Below, one piece after another: positions 7,330 through 44,697 of a stretch of DNA of 64,000 nucleotides. The DNA is taken from positions 26,158,942 through 26,222,941 of the forward strand of contig QCXZ01000001.1 of NCBI GenBank assembly GCA_025024175.1, written 5' to 3'. The notes beneath the pieces were generated by a model that had not been told where the DNA came from, did not search any database, and was given only the letters and a program-made list of their open reading frames with translations. The DNA is from Rhyzopertha dominica. Taxonomy: Eukaryota > Arthropoda > Insecta > Coleoptera > Bostrichidae. Each line of letters begins with the position of its first letter. The first letter of the stretch is position 1. A program made the translations under genes and the position numbers.

Positions 7330-8954
7330 TAAACGAGGACATATTTATATGTGCCATATAAAACGCAACAATATTTTTGTTTTATCACGTGTTTTACCAA
7401 ACGGCGAAGAAAAACCTCGAGAACGTTGTCGTCAGTTGAAAAGATTTGGAGTCAAATTTAACGTGAAGGTTTAGCTATCATTCATGGCTTATTTAAATTC
7501 AGTCAATATTTGCTGGGCAGATCCTTTACCTTAGTATGCGACAATAAGCCGCTGTTGGCTATTTTTCACCCGAATAAAGGTATACTGCAATTCTCTGCAA
7601 ACCGTTTGAGAAGATTAGCGCTAATATTGTCAAATTACCAGTATAAAGTAAAGTTTATTAAGTCAGAAAATAACGTGGCATATTAGCTGTCAAGATTGCC
7701 CGAAGAAATTTCTGCAGATCATTGTCATGATTCAAATAATTTTGATTACGTTAATTACTTTAATGATAATGACTATTTTCAAACAGACTTTGAAACAATT
7801 CAAAGCATACAAAATTCGACGCGATTCTTTCAAAAGTTGTCAATTTTGTCAATAAAGGTTGGCCAAAATATGTAAAAACGGATTCCAAATTGAAAGATTA
7901 TTACCCCATCAGAAACCAGTTAACCATAGAACAAGGTGTTTTGATGTGGAATCACAGAATATGCATACCATTTCAATTGCGAGCAAATATTTTAACACAG
8001 CTACATGCTGCATTAATGCTGCATGAATTGCACGTGGTTACTTCTTTTGGTCAGGTATTAATCAAGATATCGAAAATGTATCAATTTTGCGAAAATTGTT
8101 CTACTGTGAAACAGTCACCACCAAGGGTGGGTCTCACTCCCTGGAAATGGCCTGAAGAACTATTTTCAAGGCTTCATATAGATTATATGGACCCGTTTTT
8201 AAACAAGTACTTCCTAATTGTATTGGATGCACACTCAAAGTGGTTAGGTTAGTATTTCCAACCAACAACATTACATCCAATTTCACGATTACTGCCTTAC
8301 ACAGCGTGATTGCAGTGTTAGTGTCAGACAATGCGCCAAATTTGGTAAGTCAAGAATTTAAAAAATTTCTAAATTCATTTCACATAAAACATGTCACTTC
8401 TGCGCCTTATAACCCTCAGTCTAACGGAGCTGTTAAAACTATTAAAAATGCTTTAAAAAGGGTACTATCGCAAGGTAAAAATATTAATTTAAATAAAGTG
8501 TTACAGACATTCTTGTTTGATTACAGAACGTCCATTCATAGCACTACGGGAGTTTCTCCATCTCTTTTTATGTTCAATAGAAATATTCGTAACAAATTTA
8601 GCTTGATGGGACCACATAGCAGTATTCAAGAAATAGATACAAAATTTTGGCGGAAGAGAAAGAAGTTTTAGAGTAGGGCAGAAAGTAAAAGTGAAGGACT
8701 ATAGAAGTATAAATGTAAAATGGATTAGTGCTATAGTGAGGAAGATCATTGGAAAATGTACGTACTTAGTACAAGTTCCAGGATTAGATTGCTTGTGGAA
8801 GCGCCACACTAATCAAATTATAAATAATTTGCAAATTTCAACAGCTCCTGTAGGCGTTCCCACAAGTAATGAAAGTCAAGTGTCTGATGAGGTAAACAGT
8901 AGTAACCGACCTAAAAGGATGGTTAAGCCTCCTGAGCGACTTATATATCATTAA
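7330..8954 (+). pseudogene. Ty3/gypsy retrotransposon pol relic: RNase H and integrase
   Basis: This is the 3' half of a gypsy-type pol gene, in the order RNase H, zinc-binding, integrase core, C-terminal domain. RNase H covers about 7379-7712: VLPNGEEKP, then DNKPLLAIFHPNKG and VKFIKSENNVAY, an in-frame TAG at 7684-7686, then LSRLPEE. The integrase zinc finger lies at 7970-8110 with HELH and CENC. The core keeps its first acid in LHIDYMDP (near 8175) and its second in VSDNAPN (near 8325). In NGAVKTIKNALK the usual catalytic Glu is Lys (AAA at 8435-8437). The C-terminal domain at 8691-8954 shows VKDYR, KWISAIV and WKRHTNQI. Frames change near 7440, 8240 and 8670. Gag, protease and reverse transcriptase are absent, so the copy is 5'-truncated or deleted. 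It resembles arthropod K02A2.6-like gypsy elements. Confidence 0.88.
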
Positions 8955-10739: not shown

Positions 10740-11990
10740 AATGGTCAGCAAGTGGTACATTGCAATATTCCAGATTCCATTATCCAGATTCACCTGACTT
10801 TGCTCCACTTAACTACCGTATACAGGGTCCGCCACTTAAAACTCCCCAGGCTCGTATTTTCTTTATTTTTTTAGGTACAACCTTAAGTTATATGTCAAAT
10901 TGTAGGTCTTTTTAAACTCTTTAAAAATAGAATATTGGGTGTCAAAAATTTTTTTTTTGTAAATTATATTTACCGAATAAAGTTAATTTTTGTAAGTATT
11001 TTTTAACCTTACCCCGTATAATAAATATTGCTTTATAGTTGGATGCCGCCTTTTATTTTCTTCAATTTGTGTCTTTACCATGTATGCGTAATTTTTGCTC
11101 CTTCTTAGTGAAAAACAAGAAAAACTAGTCGCCGCCATTTTTGTTAACAGGGTTGTTCAGAATTTTTTAAGTGTTACTTTAGTAGCTTATTACGGTACAA
11201 ATTATGCCTACATACCCATCGCTGCATACAAAACCCCAAAATTTGGAGTAACTTTTTAATAAATAAAGTACAAAGTTCGTTCTACAGAGAGAGAGGCTGG
11301 AAAACGAAACCCTACGATGAGGCTAGTTTGGTTTTCTGCATCACGCACTAGCCTCATCGCAGGGTTTTGTTTCCTAGCCTCTCTCTCTGTAGAACGAACT
11401 TTGTACTTTATTTATTTAAAACTTACTCCAAATTTTGGGGTTTTGTGGGCAGCGATGGGTATGTAGGCATAATTTGTACCGCAATATGATACTAAAGTAA
11501 CACCTAAAAAATTCTGAACCATCCTATTAACAAAAATGGCGGCTACTAGTTTTTCTTGTTTTTCACTAAGAAGGAGTAAAAATTACGCATACATGGTACA
11601 GACACAAATTGAAGAAAATAAAAGGCGGCATCCAACTATAAAGCAATATTTAAAAAAAGGGTTAAGGTTAAAAAATATTTACAAAAATTAACTTTATTTG
11701 CAAAATATGGTAATTAACAAAAATTTTTGGACACCCAATATTCTATTTTTAAAGAGTTTAAAAAGACCTACAATTTGACATAAAACTTAAGGTTGTACCT
11801 AAAAAAAATAAAGAAAATACGAGCCTGGGGAGTTTTAGGTGGCGGACCCTGTATTTCCTGAACTCAAAAATAGTCTGAAAATGCGGTTTTCTTCCAACGA
11901 AGAAATTAGGGAAGATGTAGAAGGCTGGATAAGATATAGGTAAGAAGAACAGAAGACAGTACAGGACCACTGTTTAATGTGCATTCAATT
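10740..11990 (+). pseudogene. Mariner-like transposase relic, split by a palindromic insertion
   Basis: Two pieces that belong together lie on either side of the palindrome at 10823-11851. Left of it, 10740-10820 encodes WSASG...YPDSPDFAPLNYR, which matches the block around the third catalytic aspartate of mariner transposases (YSPDLAPSDYHLF). Right of it, about 11855-11945 encodes FPELKNSLKMRF and SSNEEIREDVEGWI, the segment that normally follows directly. The join shows that the palindrome inserted at a TA inside the gene. There is also a frame change at the join beyond the 2-bp target duplication, and a stop soon after. The N-terminal half was not recognised. Confidence 0.65.
10823..11851. 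mobile_element. 1,029-bp near-perfect palindromic (foldback) MITE with TA duplication
   Basis: The sequence folds around position 11337. Arms of about 505 bp (10823-11327 and 11347-11851) are near-perfect inverted copies, separated by a 19-nt spacer. The ends are CAGGGTCCGCCACTT and its complement, flanked by TA on both sides (10821-10822 and 11852-11853), the target duplication of Tc1/mariner-type transposition. Differences between arms are scattered substitutions and small indels. It has no transposase: open frames such as 10721-10915 (+) and 11758-11970 (-) are the same arm read twice. It sits inside a mariner pseudogene, so it arrived later than that element. Confidence 0.85.
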
Positions 11991-12989: not shown

Positions 12990-13348
12990 TAGGGCAATAT
13001 AAATGATTCATGCAACGCGGGCGGCGTTGATTTCTGAATTCTTTGTGCCGTCTTTTTCTAACTGCTGCCTAGCTACAATATGCACAACGATAGTTCTGAA
13101 GGTTGCAGATCACTGCCGCCCCAAATGTGACCTTTCTGGAACCTTCAATTATCCCACAAAACACTACAGAATTTATTGAAAATACACACTTTCGCGTGTT
13201 TACTTATATTAAAATATATCAAATAATTCAAAATTCGACAGATGACAAGTATACGCCATTGTGTTCACTTTCCTGAGAGGCGGCAAATTGATAAAATCCA
13301 TAATTTGCATAAGCGCCCTGCATGCATGAATCATTTATAGAAACCCTG
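12990..13348 (-). mobile_element. MITE, family 1, copy A
   Basis: A 359-bp non-coding element with terminal inverted repeats: left TAGGGCAATATAAATGATTC, right the complement of CAGGGTTTCTATAAATGATT. TA lies outside both ends (12988-12989 and 13349-13350). Its internal blocks, such as AACGCGGGCGGCGTTGATTT near 13014 and the ACCTTCAATTATCCCACAAAA block near 13140, recur in reverse complement in the copy at 14053-14401. Orientation is given relative to that copy. The left end is degraded. Confidence 0.75.
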
Positions 13349-14052
13349 TATAATATAATATAAAGCACCAAAATTTAACCCTTTAGTGCAGCCAACCACT
13401 GGAGAAGAGAAACTTAAGATAAACACAAATAAAACACATTTCCTAAAATGTAAACCAGTGATGATTATAACTTCTATCAGCGCTACTTATGCCAATCTTG
13501 AGTTTCCAGCATTTTTAGATTAATGAACTGTAAAGTTTGTGCATTCAAAACCCTATGTTCTGTAGTATGCATTAATCGAATCTATTATTTATTTGTTTTT
13601 GTACATAGAGATTGGGAAAAACATGACATTGGTCCTAGTTTACAACTTGCATCCCAGTTATTAGATTAAACAGTGTGAGAAAATTGAATTAATATTAAAC
13701 AATAAGTATTCATTTCTGGGTAAAGATATTATTAAAGCAAGCACGTACTGGGCCACCACGGACCCACACGGGCCGAGAGCCCTCTTGCCAAAACTAAAAT
13801 AATCCAGTCATATTAACTTGTGTATTATTAAACCAATCAAATGATAACTTGAGAAGGCAGCGATTTTATTTTTGGAGGGTGGTGAAAATAAAACTCAGTT
13901 TCCGGGACTGAAACCCTATCCATTTGGCCACCATTTCGAAAATAAGAGCGATTACTAATTACTATTTCATGTAAGATTAATAATAAACACTTGATAGAAA
14001 TATCTTTGACAAGGTTCTTTAATTTTCACTTTTGCAAAAAATATCCTTTATA
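13349..14052. other. Non-coding interval between two MITE copies
   Basis: About 700 bp of AT-rich DNA without a gene. A GC-richer patch at 13740-13790 stands out but has no known identity. Confidence 0.3.
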
Positions 14053-14401
14053 CAGGGTTTCTATAAATGATTCATGCATCCGGAGCGCTTATGGAAATTA
14101 TCGATTAAATCAGTTTCAGGAACACACGACGTACACTTGTTATCTGTCGATGATTGCATTTTTTGATATGAGAAAACGCGTGTGAGTGTGTATTTTCAAG
14201 ATATTCTGTAGTGTTTTGTGGGATAATCAACTTTAAGGTTGCAGAAAGCTCACATTACGGAGCTGCCGGGTGACACTTGATCTGCAACCTTCAGAACTAT
14301 CGCCATACTTATTGTAGCTTGGCAGCAGTTACAAAAAGGTGGCACAAAGAATTCAGAAATCAACGCCACTCGCGTTGCATGAATCATTTATAGAAACCCT
14401 G
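14053..14401 (+). mobile_element. MITE, family 1, copy B
   Basis: A 349-bp element with clean terminal inverted repeats (CAGGGTTTCTATAAATGATT and its complement) flanked by TA at 14051-14052 and 14402-14403. It is a second copy of the element at 12990-13348 in the opposite orientation, about 700 bp away. TA duplication and CAGGG ends fit a non-autonomous Tc1/mariner-type MITE. No coding capacity. Confidence 0.8.
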
Positions 14402-14907
14402 TATTTCTTGTAGAGCGCTCGGACTTTTTCAATTATCATTTATTCTGAGGATTTTACACTGAACTCTTGTGCATGTTTAAACAGTGACAGTATTTTTTTT
14501 GTATACTAACAGATAGCTGAGTTCATAAAAAATTATGCTACATTACCCGAATGTTGCTCTTTTTTATTGTACAGGGAATTAATTTCTTTCGATAATTACC
14601 GGTATCTTAAGAATTTAATATGATTAGAAAAATTTTTATACTTGTTAAAGATAAAAAAAACTGTCATTTTTGGAATAACATCTGTAGATGCATTACACGA
14701 ACTGGCAGGAAGATTTTAATCTTACAAGCTTAGAAATGCAGGATTGCTAAGACAAGGGCATGCATTTTTCGACATTTGGAAGGTACAACTTGTTTATTTA
14801 TAACTAAGTGTAGTTTAATAATAATGCTATCAAAACGTTATAATTATAAACACAAAAATGTAAGTCCACCTATAATGTGAAAAAGTTGGCGTAACTAAAA
14901 CCATCTC
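14402..14907. other. AT-rich non-coding interval
   Basis: I see no gene, repeat or recognisable motif here. Confidence 0.3.
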
Positions 14908-20482: not shown

Positions 20483-20491
20483 GATGGTATA
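20483..20491 (+). repeat. Target-site duplication, left copy (GATGGTATA)
   Basis: The 9-mer GATGGTATA lies immediately outside the left terminal inverted repeat and is repeated exactly, in the same orientation, immediately outside the right one (29266-29274). Confidence 0.85.
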
Positions 20492-20650
20492 ACCCGTGTG
20501 AAAACAGCGGCCAGTTCCAGCAGCCAATTTTTACGGAAACACCCGAATACTATAGAGCTAACAAACTTTGTAGATGGCCGTTCATTCATATAGGTAATTA
20601 GCTTCTACCTAGTCACCAGGAAATAGCACATTCTAAAACAAATTTTTATA
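20492..20650 (+). repeat. Left terminal inverted repeat of the foldback element (159 bp)
   Basis: Unique sequence between the target duplication and the first 142-bp unit. Its reverse complement is found at 29107-29265 with the same length and, read by eye, the same sequence. Confidence 0.88.
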
Positions 20651-23600
20651 ACAGCGCCCGTACAACGATACATTGCGAACCATCCCAAGGGGTAAAAACC
20701 GCCCTCTCGAGCACTAAAAAATTCATATCTCGGTTGGCCCCCATAGTAACTCTTTGATATTTGCACACGATGTTACCCATACCGCCAGCCAAACAGCGCC
20801 CGTACAACGATTCATTGCAAACCATCCCAAGGGGTAGAAACCGCCCTTTAGAACACTAAAATATTCATATCTCGGTTAGCCCCCATAGTAACCCTTTTAT
20901 ATTCGCACATAATCTTGCTTATACCGATAGGCAAACAGCGCCCGTACAACGATTCATTGCAAACCATCCCAAGGGGTAGAAACCGCCCTCTCGAACACTA
21001 AAAAAATCATATCTCGGTTAGCCCCCATAGTAACTCTTTGATATTTGCACACGATGTTGCCCATACCACCAGGTAAACAGCGCCCGTACAACGATTCATT
21101 GCAAACCATCCCAAGGGGTAGAAACCGCCCTCTCGAACACTAAAAAAATCATATCTCGGTTAGCCCCCATAGTAACTCTTTGATATTTGCACACGATGTT
21201 ACCCATAACGCCAGCCAAACAGCGCCCGTACAACGATTCATTGCAAACCATCCCAAGGGGTAGAAACCGCCCTCTCGAACACTAAATAAATCATATCTCG
21301 GTTAGCCCCCATAGTAACTCTTTGATATTTGCACACGATGTTGCCCATACCACCAGGCAAACAGCGCCCGTACAACGATTCATTGCAAACCATCCCAAGG
21401 GGTAGAAACCGCCCTCTCGAACACTAAAAAAACCATATCTCGGTTAGCCCCCATATTAACTCTTTGATATTTGCACACGATGTTACCCATACCGCCAGCC
21501 AAACAGCGCCCGTACAACGATTCATTGCAAACCATCCCAAGGGGTAGAAACCGCCCTCTCGAACACTAAAAAATTCATATCTCGGTTAGCCCCCATAGTA
21601 ACTCTTTGATATTTGCACACGATGTTACCCATACCGCCAGCCAAACAGCGCCCGTACAACGATTCATTGCAAACCATCCCAAGGGGTAGAAACCGCCCTC
21701 TCGAACACTAAAAAAATCATATCTCGGTTAGCCCCCATAGTAACTCTTTGATATTTGCACACGATGTTACCCATACCGCCAGCCAAACAGCGCCCGTACA
21801 ACGATTCATTGCAAACCATCCCAAGGGGTAGAAACCGCCCTCTCGAACACTAAAAAGATCATATCTCGGTTAGCCCCCATAGTAACTCTTTGATATTTGC
21901 ACACGATGTTACCCATACCGCCAGCCAAACAGCGCCCGTACAACGATTCATTGCAAACCATCCCAAGGGGTAGAAACCGCCCTCTCGAACACTAAATAAA
22001 TCATATCTCGGTTAGACCCCATAGTAACTCTTTGATATTTGCACACGATGTTGCCCATACCACCAGGCAAACAGCGCCCGTACAACGATTCATTGCAAAC
22101 CATCCCAAGGGGTAGAAACCGCCCTCTCGAACACTAAAAAAATCATATCTCGGTTAGCCCCCATAGTAACTCTTTGATATTTGCACACGATGTTACCCAT
22201 AACGCCAGCCAAACAGCGCCCGTACAACGATTCATTGCAAACCATCCCAAGGGGTAGAAACCGCCCTCTCGAACACTAAATAAATCATATCTCGGTTAGC
22301 CCCCATAGTAACTCTTTGATATTTGCACACGATGTTGCCCATACCACCAGGCAAACAGCGCCCGTACAACGATTCATTGCAAACCATCCCAAGGGGTAGA
22401 AACCGCCCTCTCGAACACTAAAAAAACCATATCTCGGTTAGCCCCCATATTAACTCTTTGATATTTGCACACGATGTTACCCATACCGCCAGCCAAACAG
22501 CGCCCGTACAACGATTCATTGCAAACCATCCCAAGGGGTAGAAACCGCCCTCTCGAACACTAAAAAATTCATATCTCGGTTAGTCCCCATAGTAACTCTT
22601 TGATATTTGCACACGATGTTACCCATACCGCCAGCCAAACAGCGCCCGTACAACGATTCATTGCAAACCATCCCAAGGGGTAGAAACCGCCCTCTCGAAC
22701 ACTAAAAAAATCATATCTCGGTTAGCCCCCATAGTAACTCTTTGATATTTGCACACGATGTTACCCATACCGCCAGCCAAACAGCGCCCGTACAACGATT
22801 CGTTGCAAACCATCCCAAGGGGTAGAAACCGCCCTCTCGAACACTAAAAAGATCATATCTCGGTTAGCCCCCATAGTAACTCTTTGATATTTGCACACGA
22901 TGTTACCCATACCGCCAGCCAAACAGCGCCCGTACAACGATTCATTGCAAACCATCCCAAGGGGTAGAAACCGCCCTCTCGAACACTAAAAAAATCATAT
23001 CTCGGTTAGACCCCATAGTAACTCTTTGATATTTGCACACGATGTTACCCATACCGCCAGCCAAACAGCGCCCGGACAACGATTCATTGTAACCCATCCC
23101 AAGGGGTAGAAACCGCCCTCTCGAACACTAAAAAATTCATATCTCGGTTAGCCCCCATAGTAACTCTTTGATATTTGCACACGATGTTACCCATACCGCC
23201 AGCCAAACAGCGCCCGTACAACGATTCATTGCAAACCATCCCAAGGGGTAGAAACCGCCCTCTCGAACACTAAAAAAATCATATCTCGGTTAGCCCCCAT
23301 AGTAACTCTTTGATATTTGCACACGATGTTACATATACCGCCAGCCAAACAGCGCCCGTACAACGATTCATTGCAAACCATCCCAAGGGGTAGAAACCGC
23401 CCTCTCGAACACTAAAAAATTCATATCTCGGTTAGCCCCCATAGTAACTCTTTGATATTTGCACACGATGTTACCCATACCGCCAGCCAAACAGCGCCCG
23501 TACAACGATTCATTGCAAACCATCCCAAGGGGTAGAAACCGCCCTCTCGAACACTAAAAAATTCATATCTCGGTTAGCCCCCATAGTAACTCNTTGATAT

Positions 23601-25326
23601 TTGCACACGATGTTNCCCATACCGCCAGCCAAACAGCGCCCGTACAACGATTCATTGCAAACCATCCCAAGGGGTAGAAACCGCCCTCTCGAACAATAAA
23701 AAATTCATATCTCGGTTAGCCCCCATAGTAACTCTTTGATATTTGCACACGATGTTGCCCATACCACCAGGCAAACAGCGCCCGTACAACGATTCATTGC
23801 AAACCATCCCAAGGGGTAGAAACCGCCCTCTCGAACACTAAAAAATTCATATCTCGGTTAGCCCCCATAGTAACTCTTTGATATTTGCACACGATGTTAC
23901 CCATACCGCCAGCCAAACAGCGCCCGTACAACGATTCATTGCAAACCATCCCAAGGGGTAGAAACCGCCCTCTCGAACACTAAAAAAATCATATCTCGGT
24001 TAGCCCCCATAGTAACTCTTTGATATTTGCACACGATGTTGCCCATACCACCAGGCAAACAGCGCCCGTACAACGATTCATTGCAAACCATCCCAAGGGG
24101 TAGAAACCGCCCTCTCGAACACTAAAAAAATCGTATCTCGGTTAGCCCCCATAGTAACTCTTTGATATTTGCACACGATGTTACCCATACCGCCAGCCAA
24201 ACAGCGCCCGGACAACGATTCATTGNAACCCATCCCAAGGGGTAGAAACCGCCCTCTCGAACACTAAAAAATTCATATCTCGGTTAGCCCCCATAGTAAC
24301 TCTTTGATATTTGCACACGATGTTGCCCATACCACCAGGCAAACAGCGCCCGTACAACGATTCATTGCAAACCATCCCAAGGGGTAGAAACCGCCCTCTC
24401 GAACACTAAAAAATTCATATCTCGGTTAGCCCCCATAGTAACTCTTTGATATTTGCACACGATGTTACATATACCGCCAGCCAAACAGCGCCCGTACAAC
24501 GATTCATTGCAAACCATCCTAAGGGGTAGAAACCGCCCTCTCGAACACTAAAAAATTCATATCTCGGTTAGCCCCCATAGTAACTCTTTGATATTTGCAC
24601 ACGATGTTACCCATACCGCCAGCCAAACAGCGCCCGTACAACGATTCATTGCAAACCATCCCAAGGGGTAGACACCGCCCTCTCGAACACTAAAAAATTC
24701 ATATCTCGGTTAGCCCCCATAGTAACTCTTTGATATTTGCACACGATGTTGCCCATACCACCAGGCAAACAGCGCCCGTACAACGATTCATTGCAAACCA
24801 TCCCAAGGGGTAGAAACCGCCCTCTCGAACACTAAAAAATTCATATCTCGGTTAGCCCTTATAGTAACTCTTTGATATTTGCACACGATGTTACCCATAC
24901 CGCCAGCCAAACAGCGCCCGTACAACGATTCATTGCAAACCATCCCAGGGGGTAGAAACCGCCCTCTCGAACACTAAAAAAANCATATCTCGGTTAGCCC
25001 ACATAGTAACTCTTTGATATTCGCACACAATGTTGCTTATACCGANAGGCAAACAGCGCCCATACAACGATTCATTGCAAACCACACGANGGGGTAGAAA
25101 CCGCCCTCTCGAGCACTAAACAATTCATATCTCGGGTAGCCCCCATAGTGACTCGTTGATATTCGCACACAATGTTGTCCATACCGCCAGGCAAACAGCG
25201 CCCATACAAAGAGTCATTGCAAGCCATCCCAAGGGGTAGAAACCGCCCTCTCGAGCACTAAAAAATTCATATCTCGGTTAGCCCCCATAGTAACTCTCTG
25301 ATATTTGCACACGATGTTGCCCATAC
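20651..25326 (+). repeat. 142-bp tandem repeat, left arm, 33 units
   Basis: Units begin with ACAGCGCCCGTACAACGATT. The first starts at 20651 and the last at 25195, a distance of exactly 32 x 142 bp; the last unit is cut about 10 bp short. Subtypes differ at a few positions, for example TTACCCATACCGCCAGCC against TTGCCCATACCACCAGGC. Outer units (to about 20934) and those nearest the centre (25040-25326) are the most divergent; the middle is highly uniform. A 7-unit block is itself duplicated. The ambiguous bases are scattered mainly through the arrays. No tRNA, promoter or protein is recognisable in the unit. Confidence 0.93.
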
Positions 25327-28300
25327 GAGATACGAGATATGAATTTTTAATTGTGCGAGAGGGCGGTTTCTACCCCTTGGTGTGGTTTGCAATGAATCGT
25401 TGTACGGGCGCTGTTTGCCTGGTGGTATGGGCAACATCGTGTGCAAATATCATAGAGTTACTATGGGGGCTAACCGAGATATGATTTTTTTAGTGTTCGA
25501 GAGGGCGGTTTCTACCCCTTGGGATGGTTTGCAATGAATCGTTGTACGGGCGCTGTTTGGCTGGCGGTATGGGTAACATCGTGTGCAAATATCAAAGAGT
25601 TACTATGGGGGCTAACCGAGATATGATTTTATTAGTGTTCGAGAGAGCGGTTTCTACCCCTTGGGATGGTTTGCAATGAATCGTTGTACGGGCGCTGTTT
25701 GGCTGGCGGTATGGGTAACATCGTGTGCAAATATCAAAGAGTTACTATGGGGGCTAACCGAGATATGATTTTTTTAGTGTTCGAGAGGGCGGTTTCTACC
25801 CCTTGGGATGGTTTGCAATGAATTGTTGTACGGGCGCTGTTTGCCTGGTGGTATGGGCAACATCGTGTGCAAATATCAAAGAGTTACTATGGGGGCTAAC
25901 CGAGATATGAATTTTTTAGTTTTCGAGAGGGCGGTATCTACCCCTTGGGATGGTTTGCAATGAATCGTTGTACGGGCGCTGTTTGGCTGGCGGTATATGT
26001 AACATCGTGTGCAAATATCAAAGAGTTACTATGGGGGCTAACCGAGATATGAATATTTTAGTGTTCGAGAGGGCGGTTTCTACCCCTTGGGATGGTTTGC
26101 AATGAATCGTTGTACGGGCGCTGTTTGCCTGGNGGTATGGGCAACATCGTGTGCAAATATCAAAGAGTTACTATGGGGGCTAACCGAGATATGANTTTTT
26201 TAGTGTTCGAGAGGGCGGTTTCTACCCCTTGGGATGGGTTACAATGAATCGTTGTCCGGGCGCTGTTTGGCTGGCGGTATGGGTAACATCGTGTGCAAAT
26301 ATCAAATAGTTACTATGGGGGCTAACCGAGATATGATTTTTTTAGTGTTCGAGGGGGCGGTTTCTACCCCTTGGGATGGTTTGCAATGAATCGTTGTACG
26401 GGCGCTGTTTGGCTGGCGGTATGGGTAACATCGTGTGCAAATATCAAAGAGTTACTATGGGGGCTAACCGAGATATGATCTTTTTAGTGTTCGAGAGGGC
26501 GGTTTCTACCCCTTGGGATGGTTTGCAATGAATCGTTGTTCGGGCGCTGTTTGGCTGGCGGTATGGGTAACATCGTGTGCAAATATCAAAGAGTTACTAT
26601 GGGGGCTAACCGAGATATGATTTTTTTAGTGTTCGAGAGGGCGGTTTCTACCCCTTGGGATGGTTTGCAATGAATCGTTGTACGGGCGCTGTTTGGCTGG
26701 CGGTATGGGTAACATCGTGTGCAAATATCAAAGAGTTACTATGGGGGCTAACCGAGATATGAATTTTTTAGTGTTCGAGAGGGCGGTTTCTACCCCTTGG
26801 GATGGTTTGCAATGAATCGTTGTACGGGCGCTGTTTGGCTGGCGGTATATGTAACATCGTGTGCAAATATCAAAGAGTTACTATGGGGGCTAACCAAGAT
26901 ATGAATTTTTTAGTGTTCGAGAGGGCGGTTTCTACCCCTTGGGATTGTTTGCAATGAATCGTTGTACGGGCGCTGTTTGCCTGGGGGTATGGGCAACATC
27001 GTGCGCAAATACCAAAGAGTTACTATGGGGGCTAACCGAGATATGAATTTTTTAGTGTTCGAGAGGGCGGTTTCTACCCCTTGGGATGGGTTACAATGAA
27101 TCGTTGTCCGGGCGCTGTTTGGCTGGCGGTATGGGTAACATCGTGTGCAAATATCAAAGAGTTACTATGGGGNCTAACCNAGATATGATTTTTTTAGTGT
27201 TCGAGAGGGCGGTTTCTACCCCTTGGGATGGTTTGCAATGAATCGTTGTACGGGCGCTGTTTGGCTGGCGGTATGGGTAACATCGTATGCAAATATCAAA
27301 GAGTTACTATGGGGGCTAACCGAGATATGATCTTTTTAGTGTTCGAGAGGGCGGTTTCTACCCCTTGGGATGGTTTGCAATGAATCGTTGTACGGGCGCT
27401 GTTTGGCTGGCGGTATGGGTAACATCGTGTGCAAATATCAAAGAGTTACTATGGGGGCTAACCGAGATATGATTTTTTTAGTGTTCGAGAGGGCGGTTTC
27501 TACCCCTTGGGATGGTTTGCAATGAATCGTTGTACGGGCGCTGTTTGGCTGGCGGTATGGGTAACATCGTGTGCAAATATCAAAGAGTTACTATGGGGGC
27601 TAACCGAGATATGAATTTTTTAGTGTTCGAGAGGGCGGTTTCTACCCCTTGGGATGGGTTTACAATGAATCGTTGTCCGGGCGCTGTTTGGCTGGCGGTA
27701 TGGGTAACNTCGTGTGCAAATATCAAAGAGTTACTATGGGGTCTAACCGAGATATGATTTTTTTAGTGTTCGAGAGGGCGGTTTCTACCCCTTGGGATGG
27801 TTTGCAATGNATCGTTGTACGGGCGCTGTTTGGCTGGCGGTATGGGTAACATCGTGTGCAAATATCAAAGAGTTACTATGGGGGCTAACCGAGATATGAT
27901 CTTTTTAGTGTTCGAGAGGGCGGTTTCTACCCCTTGGGATGGTTTGCAATGAATCGTTGTACGGGCGCTGTTTGGCTGGCGGTATGGGTAACATCGTGTG
28001 CAAATATCAAAGAGTTACTATGGGGGCTAACCGAGATATGATCTTTTTAGTGTTCGAGAGGGCGGTTTCTACCCCTTGGGATGGTTTGCAATGAATCGTT
28101 GTACGGGCGCTGTTTGGCTGGCGGTATGGGTAACATCGTGTGCAAATATCAAAGAGTTACTGTGGGGGCTAACCGAGATATGAATTTTTTAGTGTTCGAG
28201 AGGGCGGTTTCTACCCCTTGGGATGGTTTGCAATGAATCGTTGTACGGGCGCTGTTTGGCTGGCGGTATGGGTAACATCGTGTGCAAATATCAAAGAGTT

Positions 28301-29106
28301 AATATGGGGGCTAACCGAGATATGATTTTTTAGTGTTCGAGAGGGCGGTTTCTACCCCTTGGGATGGTTTGCAATGAATCGTTGTACGGGCGCTGTTTGC
28401 CTGGTGGTATGGGCAACATCGTGTGCAAATATCAAAGAGTTACTATGGGGGCTAACCGAGATATGATTTTTTTAGTGTTCGAGAGGGCGGTTTCTACCCC
28501 TTGGGATGGTTTGCAATGAATCGTTGTACGGGCGCTGTTTGCCTGGCGTTATGGGCAACATCGTGTGCAAATATCAAAGAGTTACTATGGGGGCTAACCG
28601 AGATATGATTTTTTTAGTGTTCGAGAGGGCGGTTTCTACCCCTTGGGATGGTTTGCAATGAATCGTTGTACGGGCGCTGTTTGCCTATCGGTATAGGCAA
28701 GATCGTGTGCGAATATAAAAGGGTTACTATGGGGGCTAACCGAGATATGAATTTTTTAGTGTTCTAAAGGGCGGTTTCTACCCCTTGGGATGGTTTGCAA
28801 TGAATCGTTGTACGGGCGCTGTTTGCCTATCGGTATAAGCAAGATTATGTGCGAATATAAAAGGGTTACTATGGGGGCTAACCGAGATATGAATATTTTA
28901 GTGTTCTAAAGGGCGGTTTCTACCCCTTGGGATGGTTTGCAATGAATCGTTGTACGGGCGCTGTTTGGCTGGCGGTATGGGTAACATCGTGTGCAAATAT
29001 CAAAGAGTTACTATGGGGGCTAACCGAGATATGAATTTTTTAGTGCTCGAGAGGGCGGTTTTTACCCCTTGGGATGGTTCGCAATGTATCGTTGTACGGG
29101 CGCTGT
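25327..29106 (-). repeat. 142-bp tandem repeat, right arm, 27 units in reverse orientation
   Basis: The same unit read on the minus strand. Unit boundaries (the CTGT complementary to the unit start) fall at 25414 for the first and 29106 for the last, exactly 26 x 142 bp apart. The orientation switch at 25327-25345 (CGAGATACGAGATATGAAT) has a short duplicated CGAGATA. Outer-edge variants mirror those of the left arm: two units at about 28680-28880 carry the CCTATCGGTATA type found once near 20920. Long open frames inside (for instance 27512-27849) arise only because the unit lacks stops in some frames. Confidence 0.93.
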
Positions 29107-29265
29107 TATAAAAATTTGTTTTAGAATGTGCTATTTCCTGGTGACTAGGTAGAAGCTAATTACCTATATGAATGAACGGCCATCTACAAAGTTTGTTAGC
29201 TCTATAGTATTCGGGTGTTTCCGTAAAAATTGGCTGCTGGAACTGGCCGCTGTTTTCACACGGGT
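29107..29265 (-). repeat. Right terminal inverted repeat of the foldback element (159 bp)
   Basis: Reverse complement of 20492-20650, the same length and apparently identical. It is followed directly by GATGGTATA. Confidence 0.88.
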
Positions 29266-29274
29266 GATGGTATA
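29266..29274 (+). repeat. Target-site duplication, right copy (GATGGTATA)
   Basis: Exact direct repeat of 20483-20491, placed immediately outside the right terminal repeat. Together they define the insertion site of the foldback element. Confidence 0.85.
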
Positions 29275-41568: not shown

Positions 41569-44251
41569 GTACTCTCGGTTGCAATATTCATGCAACAGCA
41601 TAAGGGGCAACCTCCTACACTCTAAATTTAGTATCTTTTTCCACCAAAGATGGGGCAAGCACAGTATCCCTATTGAGCAACAATTCCCAGTTTTTATGCA
41701 ACCCAGCATTACCACATTTGAATATCTGCAGAGTTCAATGACAGGTAAGATCTACAATCGGATCTACCTGTTTTTACTATTACACCCAATATAACCAGGC
41801 CAGCCCAACCGGTGCGGTATAGCTAGGAATATGAAATTAGAGTTCCAAATGGACAGATACAACGCTCATAGGTATAAAGGGTCGGCGTGAACGAAATTTA
41901 ATAGCAATTACCTTCATTTCTAAACTCTTTTTTTTGAGGCATGCCTATTTAGTAAACCGAAATATGTAAAAGGTTAAAGTTATTAAAACTTGAAACATTA
42001 CAGTTATTATTATATTATTGTTAAAATGTTTCACTTAAACCGCGGAATCGGTCCACTTAAGTCAATGAACCAGTTTTTCTTCTCAATTTTAAACTAAAGT
42101 CAACTTTGTTATTTGAAGCTACTTTTGTCATCGTAACAAACTTGATTTTAGCTAATATCAAATTTAAAAAAATAAGCTTTTAGATACTTATATAGAATTG
42201 TGGTAAGTCATTTATTTGGGTACTAAATTTCTCCACTTTTATAATTTTAGCACAGGTTTAATAATAATATATGAAAAGAGGACCGTGGTTGCAACTTGTC
42301 AATTTTTAAGGTTACTGAGAAGATGAGTTACAAATTACAATTAATGTGTGTATATACGTGTTCGTTGGGATATAACGACAGTAACCTATTGTGATGTCAC
42401 TAAACTCTGTTCTGCCTTGATGTATTCAATAAATTAATTTAAATATCCTAATTTGGTATATGTATACAGCGGCGATATTTTGTCGCATAAGTAGAATTAC
42501 TTCCATGTGGTTAAGCAGGGCAACTTATATCTATTTTAACAATCTATATATCCGATAATTAAATATTTAGAAAATTCAGATATTTTTAAAAACTTTTAAA
42601 GTACCGAATGCTTCAAAATACAACAAATATGGTAAACAAAATGTAATAAAGTAAAAAAACAAATACATTTTCTCTAACCGCGTGTAAAATAATAACGTAG
42701 AAAAACTTATACTACCACGAAAGTATTGCTTCGAATTGCATGTAGGTAATAGTATATGGCGTGGATGACTACATATAAAGCACATTATTTATAACAATTG
42801 CTGAGACTACAGTACTGTAATATTGTAAATATTTTAACTGGAAGGTTTAATATGCCGTTCAAATTATTAATGGATAGTATCAACGAATTTGCCATTATTA
42901 TCGGCGGGATAATTTTGTTTATGTCTAATAAGGATGTTTCTTGCATGTTTGCTAAGTAATTGTCCATATTTAACAGAATATTTATAGTTAGAAGGTAATA
43001 AGGTTTTTAGATCGTTATTACATTCTGTTTTATAAACAGGAGGGATAAGTGGAGCTAAATTGAGGTGTATAAAAAACGTTTTCTATGTAAAACTTGCTGT
43101 ATATGAATCTTAGTCAAAATTTGAAAATTCCGAAAACAAAAATTCCCATTTACATCGTCATAATTGTACTACAGATGTGCTTAAGAAACCAAACTGATGA
43201 CATTCCTAGACTAATAGAAATTTATTTTCTTGAAGAAAGCATGTGTTTTTGTTAATGTCATTTACTTGCAGTTTAAATTTATGTCTATAAAAATCCTATT
43301 AGGACTTTTTGATNTTTATACTTGTCAAAACGTTGTTAAGGTTACTCAGACCCTGTTATAACGCATATTTTAATGGTACCCGATTTAACAAAATGCAATT
43401 ACTTGCAGGAAAAATTCCTTTTAAATGTGGTAAATTTTCAATTATTTGGGCTTTCGTTTAAAGTAAATAAATTCATAAATAATCTTTAGAAAAACAGTTA
43501 CAATTTTTCAAATATTTTACAATACCACGGAAATCTGTAAGTGCTACGTGATATGCATTTTCTTGCAATTAATTGTAATTGGTAAACTCATCGCTCCTCT
43601 TTTTCAAATATTATTATTGCATGTATGCTGAGGTAGTGCAGGTTAGTATAATATACCTGAAATAAATTAATAAACGACTTACTATCATTCGATGTGTCTA
43701 AAAATTAATGGGCCTTAAGGTAAGGTAATGTTTGGTTTAGATTTTCATTACAAAGATTGATTTTAACTTAAAATAAAATAGAGAAGAAAAACCTGCCCAA
43801 TGACTTCAGTTGACAGATTCCACAGTGTTAAATGAATAGCAATAATATAACACTTCATAATGTTATTAACTTGCTCCATGTTTTACAAAAGAAAGTTGCT
43901 TATTGATATTAGATTTTGTTCACGCTAATGACGCGACGCCGACCCTTTATGCCTAAGAGCATTGTATCTGTCCATTTGGAACAATAATTCCATATTTCCA
44001 GCTACACCGCACCACCTAAGCTGGGCTGTTTATATTAAGTAGGTAGTCGTAAAAACAGGTAGATCCGAGGGTAGATCTTATTTGTCATTGAACTCTGCAG
44101 ATATTCAAATGTTGGGTTGCATAAAATCGGGAATTGTTGCTCAATAGGGATACTGTACTTACCCCATCGTTTGGTGGAAAAAGGTACTACATTTGGAGTG
44201 TAAAGGGTTGCTTGTTATGTTGTTGCATGAATATTGCAACTGATAGTACGT
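41569..44251. mobile_element. 2.7-kb divergent inverted-repeat structure
   Basis: 41569-41893 and 43918-44251 are inverted copies of about 330 bp with moderate divergence. Shared blocks include GTTGCAATATTCATGCAAC, ACAGTATCCCTATTGAGCAA, TCTGCAGAGTTCAATGACA and TAAAGGGTCGGCGT. Weaker similarity continues inward, through GTTTTTCTTCTC (left near 42072; complement near 43785) and TGAGTTACAAATTACAATTAAT-like sequence, to about 42340 on the left and 43560 on the right. Arms are thus about 700-770 bp around a core of roughly 1.2 kb without coding content. Either one old long-TIR transposon or an old inverted duplication. No target duplication was seen. It lies just upstream of the senseless exon, in its intron. 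Confidence 0.65.
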
Positions 44252-44485: not shown

Positions 44486-44503
44486 TTTTACATTTCGTTT
44501 CAG
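44486..44503 (+). other. Splice acceptor of the senseless terminal exon
   Basis: A pyrimidine-rich tract (CTTTTACATTTCGTTTCAG) ends in CAG at 44501-44503. Coding sequence then begins with GA, completing a glycine codon split G|GA, so the intron is phase 1. The linker TG|EKP is where it falls in the protein. Confidence 0.75.
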
Positions 44504-44697
44504 GAGAAAAACCCCACAAGTGCACCGTCTGCGGCAAAGCCTTCAGCCAGTCCTCCAACCTCATCACACACTCGCGCAAGCACACCGGGTTCAAGCCCTT
44601 CGCGTGCGACCTGTGCGGACGTGCCTTCCAGCGGAAAGTGGACCTTCGCCGCCACAAGGAGACCCAGCACACAGAGCTCAGGCCCATAGTGACATAG
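44504..44697 (+). CDS. sens: Senseless/Gfi1-type zinc-finger protein, terminal coding exon
   Basis: The exon encodes the last 63 residues of a C2H2 transcription factor. The first finger follows a split linker (G)EKPHKC: C-TVC, then [15 protein letters not shown]. The second follows [12 protein letters not shown], then [16 protein letters not shown]. All zinc-binding Cys and His are present. These two fingers, with SQSSNLITH and [10 protein letters not shown], are the hallmark of the Gfi1/Senseless family, nuclear DNA-binding factors that bind AAATCA-core sites and direct sensory-organ development in insects. The tail ELRPIVT precedes TAG at 44695-44697. Codon third positions are strongly GC-rich, unlike the AT-rich DNA around. 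Earlier fingers and the N-terminus must lie on upstream exons; none is recognisable in the window. The paralogue senseless-2 cannot be excluded. Confidence 0.9.

Follow-up and report, generated by a model that had tools for sequence, protein, structure and literature searches.

Drosophila FB is a foldback transposon with 9-bp target-site duplications and arms built of tandem repeats, which are short (tens of bp); a loop is present in some copies. An element that resembles it by this description lies in the beetle Rhyzopertha dominica, within a stretch of 64,000 bp analysed here as a whole (the window; C1:26158942-26222941 of a genome assembly of 479,159,283 bp in 138 contigs). Between two copies of a 9-bp duplication it occupies positions 20492-29265 of the window (8,774 bp), and this copy contains neither gene nor loop nor assembly gap. 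It is read here as a non-autonomous foldback DNA transposon, most likely of the Mutator type (Rehavkus/FB branch), a statement that, taken whole, is given a probability of about 0.83.

Other described systems are compared as far as the accessible parts of their published descriptions go. Rehavkus, with Rehavkus-1_TC of Tribolium castaneum as an example, shares the 9-bp duplications, terminal inverted repeats (TIRs) in the range of 26-400 bp and a terminal satellite or minisatellite; the 164-bp satellite TCsat23 lies in the inverted termini of Rehavkus-1_TC (PMC10218199), and the Rehavkus minisatellite is described as sitting before the 3' TIR (PMC6446971). Rehavkus-1_TC differs in being 9.5 kb long with arrays of mostly 5 and 8 monomers and none above 9, whereas the present element reaches ~39 units per arm and has arrays on both sides; the two are likened by description. 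Tetris / TIR-220 of Drosophila virilis (PMC4079207) is a non-autonomous foldback element with 8-10-bp duplications, tandem repeats of ~220 bp in its TIRs and no known transposase. It has a middle domain and three structurally complete copies, compared with a 6-bp centre in the window copy and 31 convergent pairs of ends in the present genome. The Tetris copy for which two alleles were compared had 3 or 4 repeats in the left TIR (PMC4079207), and Tetris repeats also form long satellite-like arrays, whereas none was located free here; this likeness is again one of description. Tm1 of root-knot nematodes (PMC3169594), assigned to Mutator/Foldback, has mostly 9-bp duplications without consensus and repeats in its TIRs, but the repeat motif is ~14 bp and a Phantom-type transposase is known. 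Muta1 of Aedes aegypti (PMC5225508), classed as a foldback type, has 8-9-bp duplications and a TIR of 145 bp with subterminal tandem repeats, but these are 12 bp long and belong to a 3.2-kb coding element, active in yeast. A text search of the literature, where sequences are not searchable, found no description of the present sequence; for a 142-bp satellite it turned up one paper, on Tenebrio molitor and its satellite. The kind of element, a satellite-armed foldback, is known; what is unusual is the length of the arrays, the near-absent loop and the differing repeats among the sampled families with related tips.

Architecture and dispersed copies

The initial annotation had described a foldback with inverted 142-bp arrays behind identical 159-bp termini, and the 9-bp duplication, the termini and the opposed arrays were all confirmed to the base (Table 1). 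On the + strand of the window GATGGTATA occurs only as the two copies at 20483 and 29266. Read from the tips inward, the arms show a single difference within their first 498 bases, at position 245; the termini of 159 bp are therefore identical. The edge units of the left array (20650-20791 and 20792-20933) are diverged and have near-identical partners in the right arm. The exact unit 30-mer is found 45 times inside the element and nowhere in the remainder of the window, where BLAST with the terminus or the unit gave best matches of 11-30 bp at E 0.25 or worse. Twelve of the 24 single-N positions of the window fall inside the element, and letters at the level of individual units are less certain there. 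Thus defined, the window copy has the long inverted tandem-repeat arms behind a unique terminal domain by which foldback elements are recognized.

Table 1. Parts of the window copy, in window positions
Feature	Position	Strand	Remark
Left target-site duplication GATGGTATA	20483..20491		exact match
Left TIR, 159 bp, tip ACCCGTGTGAAAACAGCGGCC	20492..20650	+	shares its last base with the start of the array
Left arm array, 142-bp unit, 32.9 copies	20650..25326	+	Tandem Repeats Finder, period 142, 95% matches
Palindrome centre GAGATA, 6 bp between arrays	25327..25332		within junction 25-mer CCCATACGAGATACGAGATATGAAT, 25320-25344
Right arm array, 142-bp unit inverted, 26.6 copies	25333..29107	-	Tandem Repeats Finder, 95% matches
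Right TIR, 159 bp, identical to left	29107..29265	-	arm comparison
Right target-site duplication GATGGTATA	29266..29274		exact match

In the genome, the tip 18-mer (≤1 mismatch) has 74 matches, 37 forward and 37 reverse (0/0 for the reversed control), which resolve into 31 convergent pairs and 12 single ends; two of the latter, C86:16030526 and C86:18371855, belong to a related family (family 2, see below). A search with the terminus, in which 40 of 82 candidates were scored, returned all 40 at 99-100% identity. The pairs span 2,193-27,456 bp, the longest being inflated by a misplaced contig. Perfect 9-bp duplications flank 25 of the 31 pairs (10/12 in the first set and 15/19 in the second); that of the C53:8225512 pair becomes perfect once a C>T change is assumed at tip base 2, and that of C137:25540725 matches at 8/9 bases. 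The unpaired ends C41:17817825 and C41:17843792 are probably a single insertion split by scaffolding or inversion, because the 9-mers beside their tips are reverse-complementary and one array halts at an N gap (L028:740-839). All 27 duplications (the 25, C53 and C41) are distinct and lack a consensus. By chance a given pair of ends would carry a perfect 9-mer once in 4^9, and chance is excluded because the terminus recurs as convergent pairs, 25/31 of them with a perfect 9-bp duplication of their own. The initial annotation had claimed a transposed unit and had named as its test further insertions that share the ends but differ in the 9-bp duplication and in unit number, and such insertions were found. 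With copies dispersed in the genome, each bringing its own target duplication, the stretch is almost certainly a mobile foldback transposon.

The longest pair, C53:8225512-8252967 (27.4 kb), was considered as a coding autonomous copy and rejected. Its unique middle of 21.5 kb, bounded by N gaps (C53:8228470-8249975, L025-L027), carries YqaJ and DDE_Tnp_4 frames together with a DDE_3 piece below cut-off; the combination of the first two recalls ISL2EU elements. Between the left flank of the pair and the right end of this middle the match is 96%, and two of three pieces from further upstream match as well (97% and 89%; the third gave no match). The middle is therefore probably not the coding core of the element but a second-haplotype contig, that is, the other haplotype of the upstream flank wrongly scaffolded into the repeat array. 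The gapped copies C1:8022399 and C3:53300240 show their centre twice, perhaps from the same cause. Runs of 98-100 N stand in or at the array in 10 of 28 fetched loci, two of which overlap on one gap, so unit numbers are unreliable in the gapped copies.

Long palindromes are regarded as fragile. The centre 25-mer of the window copy (≤1 mismatch) occurs 11 times in both orientations at nine loci: the window, C1:8022399 (twice), C3:386354, C3:12053527, C41:5994120 (twice), C41:15401086, C64:33429110, C64:34114868 (a single end) and C64:43243639. Other copies have different centres. Since nine loci have a common central junction, the finished palindrome was probably transposed repeatedly as a whole, which suggests that long palindromes survive transposition. 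Comparison of the termini over 159 bp took in 29 of the 74 ends, of which 21 equal those of the window and eight differ at one position, one of these being an N. Mean identity among the 29 ends declines inward, from 99.8% over positions 1-142 to 83% at ~1 kb. The best reading is that the element is young.

The 142-bp repeat and related tip families

The two arms vary in length among the five gap-free copies, with 33.0+26.6, 15.7+27.0, 38.9+28.6, 5.4+20.6 and 17.2+7.0 units. In the left arm of the window copy, units differ least at a lag of 7 (2.67 bases, as opposed to 3.2-4.3 at lags 1-6 and 8-11), a minimum absent from the right arm. Near the tips, left-arm and right-arm units follow almost the same order, and one arm has a gap of 426 nt (3 units) relative to the other. 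The mean difference is 3.5 bases between left and right units equidistant from the tip and 5.9 over all left-right pairings; for the nine units closest to the tip the arms show 0-2 differences, except at the third (12). Because equidistant units are more alike and near-tip units nearly identical, we infer exchange between the arms of the window element. In five elements the longest exact shared stretches measure 146-456 bp when the two arms of an element are compared and 87-441 bp when different elements are; the ranges overlap, so an arm is not clearly more similar to its partner than to the arms of other copies. This suggests that units were exchanged, or recently inherited, across copies.

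The unit 30-mer has 997 matches in the genome (497/500; none for the reversed control). All of the first 100 listed lie inside elements (three elements on C1), as do the 13/13 matches of a rarer unit variant (six elements). Counted in elements are 527 of the 997, with 477 in 12 fetched pairs and 50 in L028. The other 470, not placed singly, fit the length of the remaining 19 pairs (~142 kb), for which the match density in the fetched pairs, excluding the C53 insert, predicts ~600 matches; free arrays are therefore not needed to account for the assembled unit copies. No free satellite array was found among the located units (the 100 listed of 997 and the 13 variant matches), each of which stands between termini, and the suggestion of the initial annotation that the element is a source from which free satellite arrays spread finds no support there. 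The assembly may lack heterochromatin, and arrays collapsed in it could escape such a survey. Viral contigs scanned for exact matches to a 26-mer of the unit and to a 21-mer of the tip yielded 0 in each case.

The shorter tip ACCNGTGTGAAAACAGC occurs exactly 183 times in the genome (89/94; reversed control 0/0), and among the first 100 listed the 67 tips beyond the 74 form at least 25 further convergent pairs. Family 2 (C86, L094/L096) matches family 1, that of the window copy, at 77-78% in the outermost 83-89 bp, and its units recur every 142 bp (two 461-bp ends). Family 3 has 65-75 bp in common with family 2 at 81-86% and a 141-bp tandem repeat, seen in one 1.1-kb stretch inside C64:35172583-35176840. 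With the best rotation and 100 single-base shuffles, the unit of family 2 is homologous, in unchanged register, to that of family 1 (59%, z 7.7) and to that of family 3 (65%, z 12.0). Family 5 was sampled as two 450-bp stretches of one 7.8-kb pair (C3:24620159), where a 156-bp repeat runs forward at one point and inverted at the other; from these sequences it is apparently not clearly related to the 142-bp unit. The related tips also include three further pairs of 7.6-7.8 kb, short pairs of 0.53-0.57 kb and another tip type (L104) with 16 matches.

Two arrangements on C86 stand apart from these comparisons. At C86:17937602-17938062 (L095) the tip of a family-2-like end adjoins that of a family-1-like end, one base at most separating the two. 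The family-2 ends C86:16030526 (L094) and 18371855 (L096) are in opposite orientation 2.3 Mb apart and have outer flanks very similar over 60 bases, so the flank is itself repeated or duplicated.

It is a tentative reading, to which we give somewhat less than even odds, that the ACCNGTGTGAAAACAGC tip lineage commands a whole group of foldbacks with satellite arms, in which every family has a repeat specific to it. In families 1-3 the units would have diverged in register at a constant ~142 bp, and in family 5 the repeat is one of 156 bp that is apparently unrelated. On this view the arm would be a functional component, renewed or replaced over time, and the lineage would both generate and disperse satellites, as a system of its own and not as a transposon merely holding a satellite by chance. 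Two comparisons speak against such a multi-family reading: the units of families 1 and 3 are not significantly similar alone (54%, z 1.0), and that of family 5 scores borderline against family 1 (69.5, with a mean of 51.7 and a maximum of 70.0 over 60 shuffles).

The array may instead be a passenger, in that an element with short TIRs captured an existing satellite once and became a palindrome later, which concerns the origin and is compatible with a Mutator-type foldback. The 156-bp repeat behind a related tip would fit such a capture. The units of families 1/2 and 2/3 are, however, homologous in the same register (142, 142 and 141 bp), so the repeat in families 1-3 seems to have diverged with the tips and not to have been captured anew; no free array was located among the units placed, and this origin is unlikely.

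Superfamily and mode of spread

The 9-bp length of the duplications lies within the 8-11 bp of Mutator target duplications. Together with a TIR of 159 bp it also agrees with Rehavkus in the available part of its description (PMC6446971, Table 1), as does the terminal satellite, which is here in both arms.

Several observations weigh against the reading as a Mutator-type foldback. The 9-bp duplication is missing in 4/31 pairs (C136:7506789, C64:37741238, C64:50535934 and C108:40515), the first of which also holds a third, partial terminus. The Mutator transposase searches (PF10551 and PF20700), with part of the candidates scored, gave abundant matches in the genome but none inside an element. 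For PF10551, none of 150 scored of 376 candidates lay within 20 kb of 176 known tips, the nearest being 35 kb away; for PF20700, none of 136 listed matches (114 of 479 candidates scored) lay between paired tips, and three only were less than 40 kb from a known tip. The tips used in these checks comprised the first 100 listed of the 183 ACCNGTGTGAAAACAGC tips and part of the other 83 known otherwise. Thirty stretches of 3.2-3.3 kb from Mutator loci contained no 18-base tip within 4 mismatches, save three with exactly 4. The kinship to 9-bp-duplication Mutator-like elements claimed in the initial annotation accordingly holds for the duplication and, within this partial scoring, gains no transposase match between known paired tips. 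Rehavkus transposases could escape both profiles, since they have a PHD finger and are used as an outgroup to the rest of the Mutator elements (PMC6446971).

The element could also be a foldback of another superfamily with 8-9-bp duplications, such as Merlin, whose duplications are 8-9 bp, or a P-like element such as Galileo. The foldback form arises in several superfamilies, as the accessible parts of two sources indicate (PMC3169594, PMC4079207), and no Mutator transposase was found between paired tips among the candidates scored. Set against this are duplications of 9 bp in all 25 perfect pairs and the 9-bp duplications and minisatellites of Rehavkus, which, as far as described, fit best; membership of another superfamily is quite unlikely. 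That an ordinary satellite block was rearranged into an inverted duplication, as the satellite-like unit (142 bp, 95% matches) might suggest, is virtually excluded by the precise termini, the 25/31 perfect duplications, the dispersed copies with near-identical ends and the confinement of all located units to elements; short of errors all through the assembly, the genome survey refutes it.

As a non-autonomous foldback of Mutator type, the element would be moved by a transposase supplied in trans that recognises the tip, presumably the first ~75-90 bp common to the sister families, and that inserts the whole palindrome with 9-bp staggered cuts. Between transpositions the arms may change by unequal exchange and conversion: units or blocks would be gained and lost, the arms corrected against each other near the tips, and the palindrome centres trimmed or re-formed. 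The repeat would thus be carried and multiplied as part of the transposon. With ~30 sisters whose ends are nearly identical, and with similar-tipped relatives that carry other repeats, the element appears to be a vehicle by which satellite-like arrays are moved about the genome. It has long been asked how satellite repeats pass from one chromosome to another. In this genome ~30 insertions that are nearly identical at their ends bear arrays of as many as ~68 units (gap-free copies), and the sampled sister families have related and unrelated repeats, so that one could track, insertion by insertion, how a satellite-like repeat spreads, is homogenised and turns over.

Other features of the window

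Several further repeats lie outside the element. At 10820-11854 there is a palindromic element of ~1.04 kb with ends ATACAGGGT...ACCCTGTAT, inner arms of 382 nt at 91% and outer parts at 92-98%. Overlapping inverted and direct repeats at 12998-14404, with ends TATAAATGATTCATGCA / ATACAGGGTTTC, are probably nested transposons of another family. A 2.7-kb element at 41569-44249 has inverted ends that are 84-91% complementary. Overlapping frames occupy 7794-8671, the second of which (8156-8671) has a partial retrotransposon-type integrase (PF00665, E 4.6e-6, below the curated cut-off). The exon at 44503-44697 encodes C2H2 zinc fingers whose PDB matches include Gfi-1 (2kmk, E 2.9e-25), with ZNF568 and others scoring higher; we take it to resemble the end of a senseless/Gfi-1 type protein.

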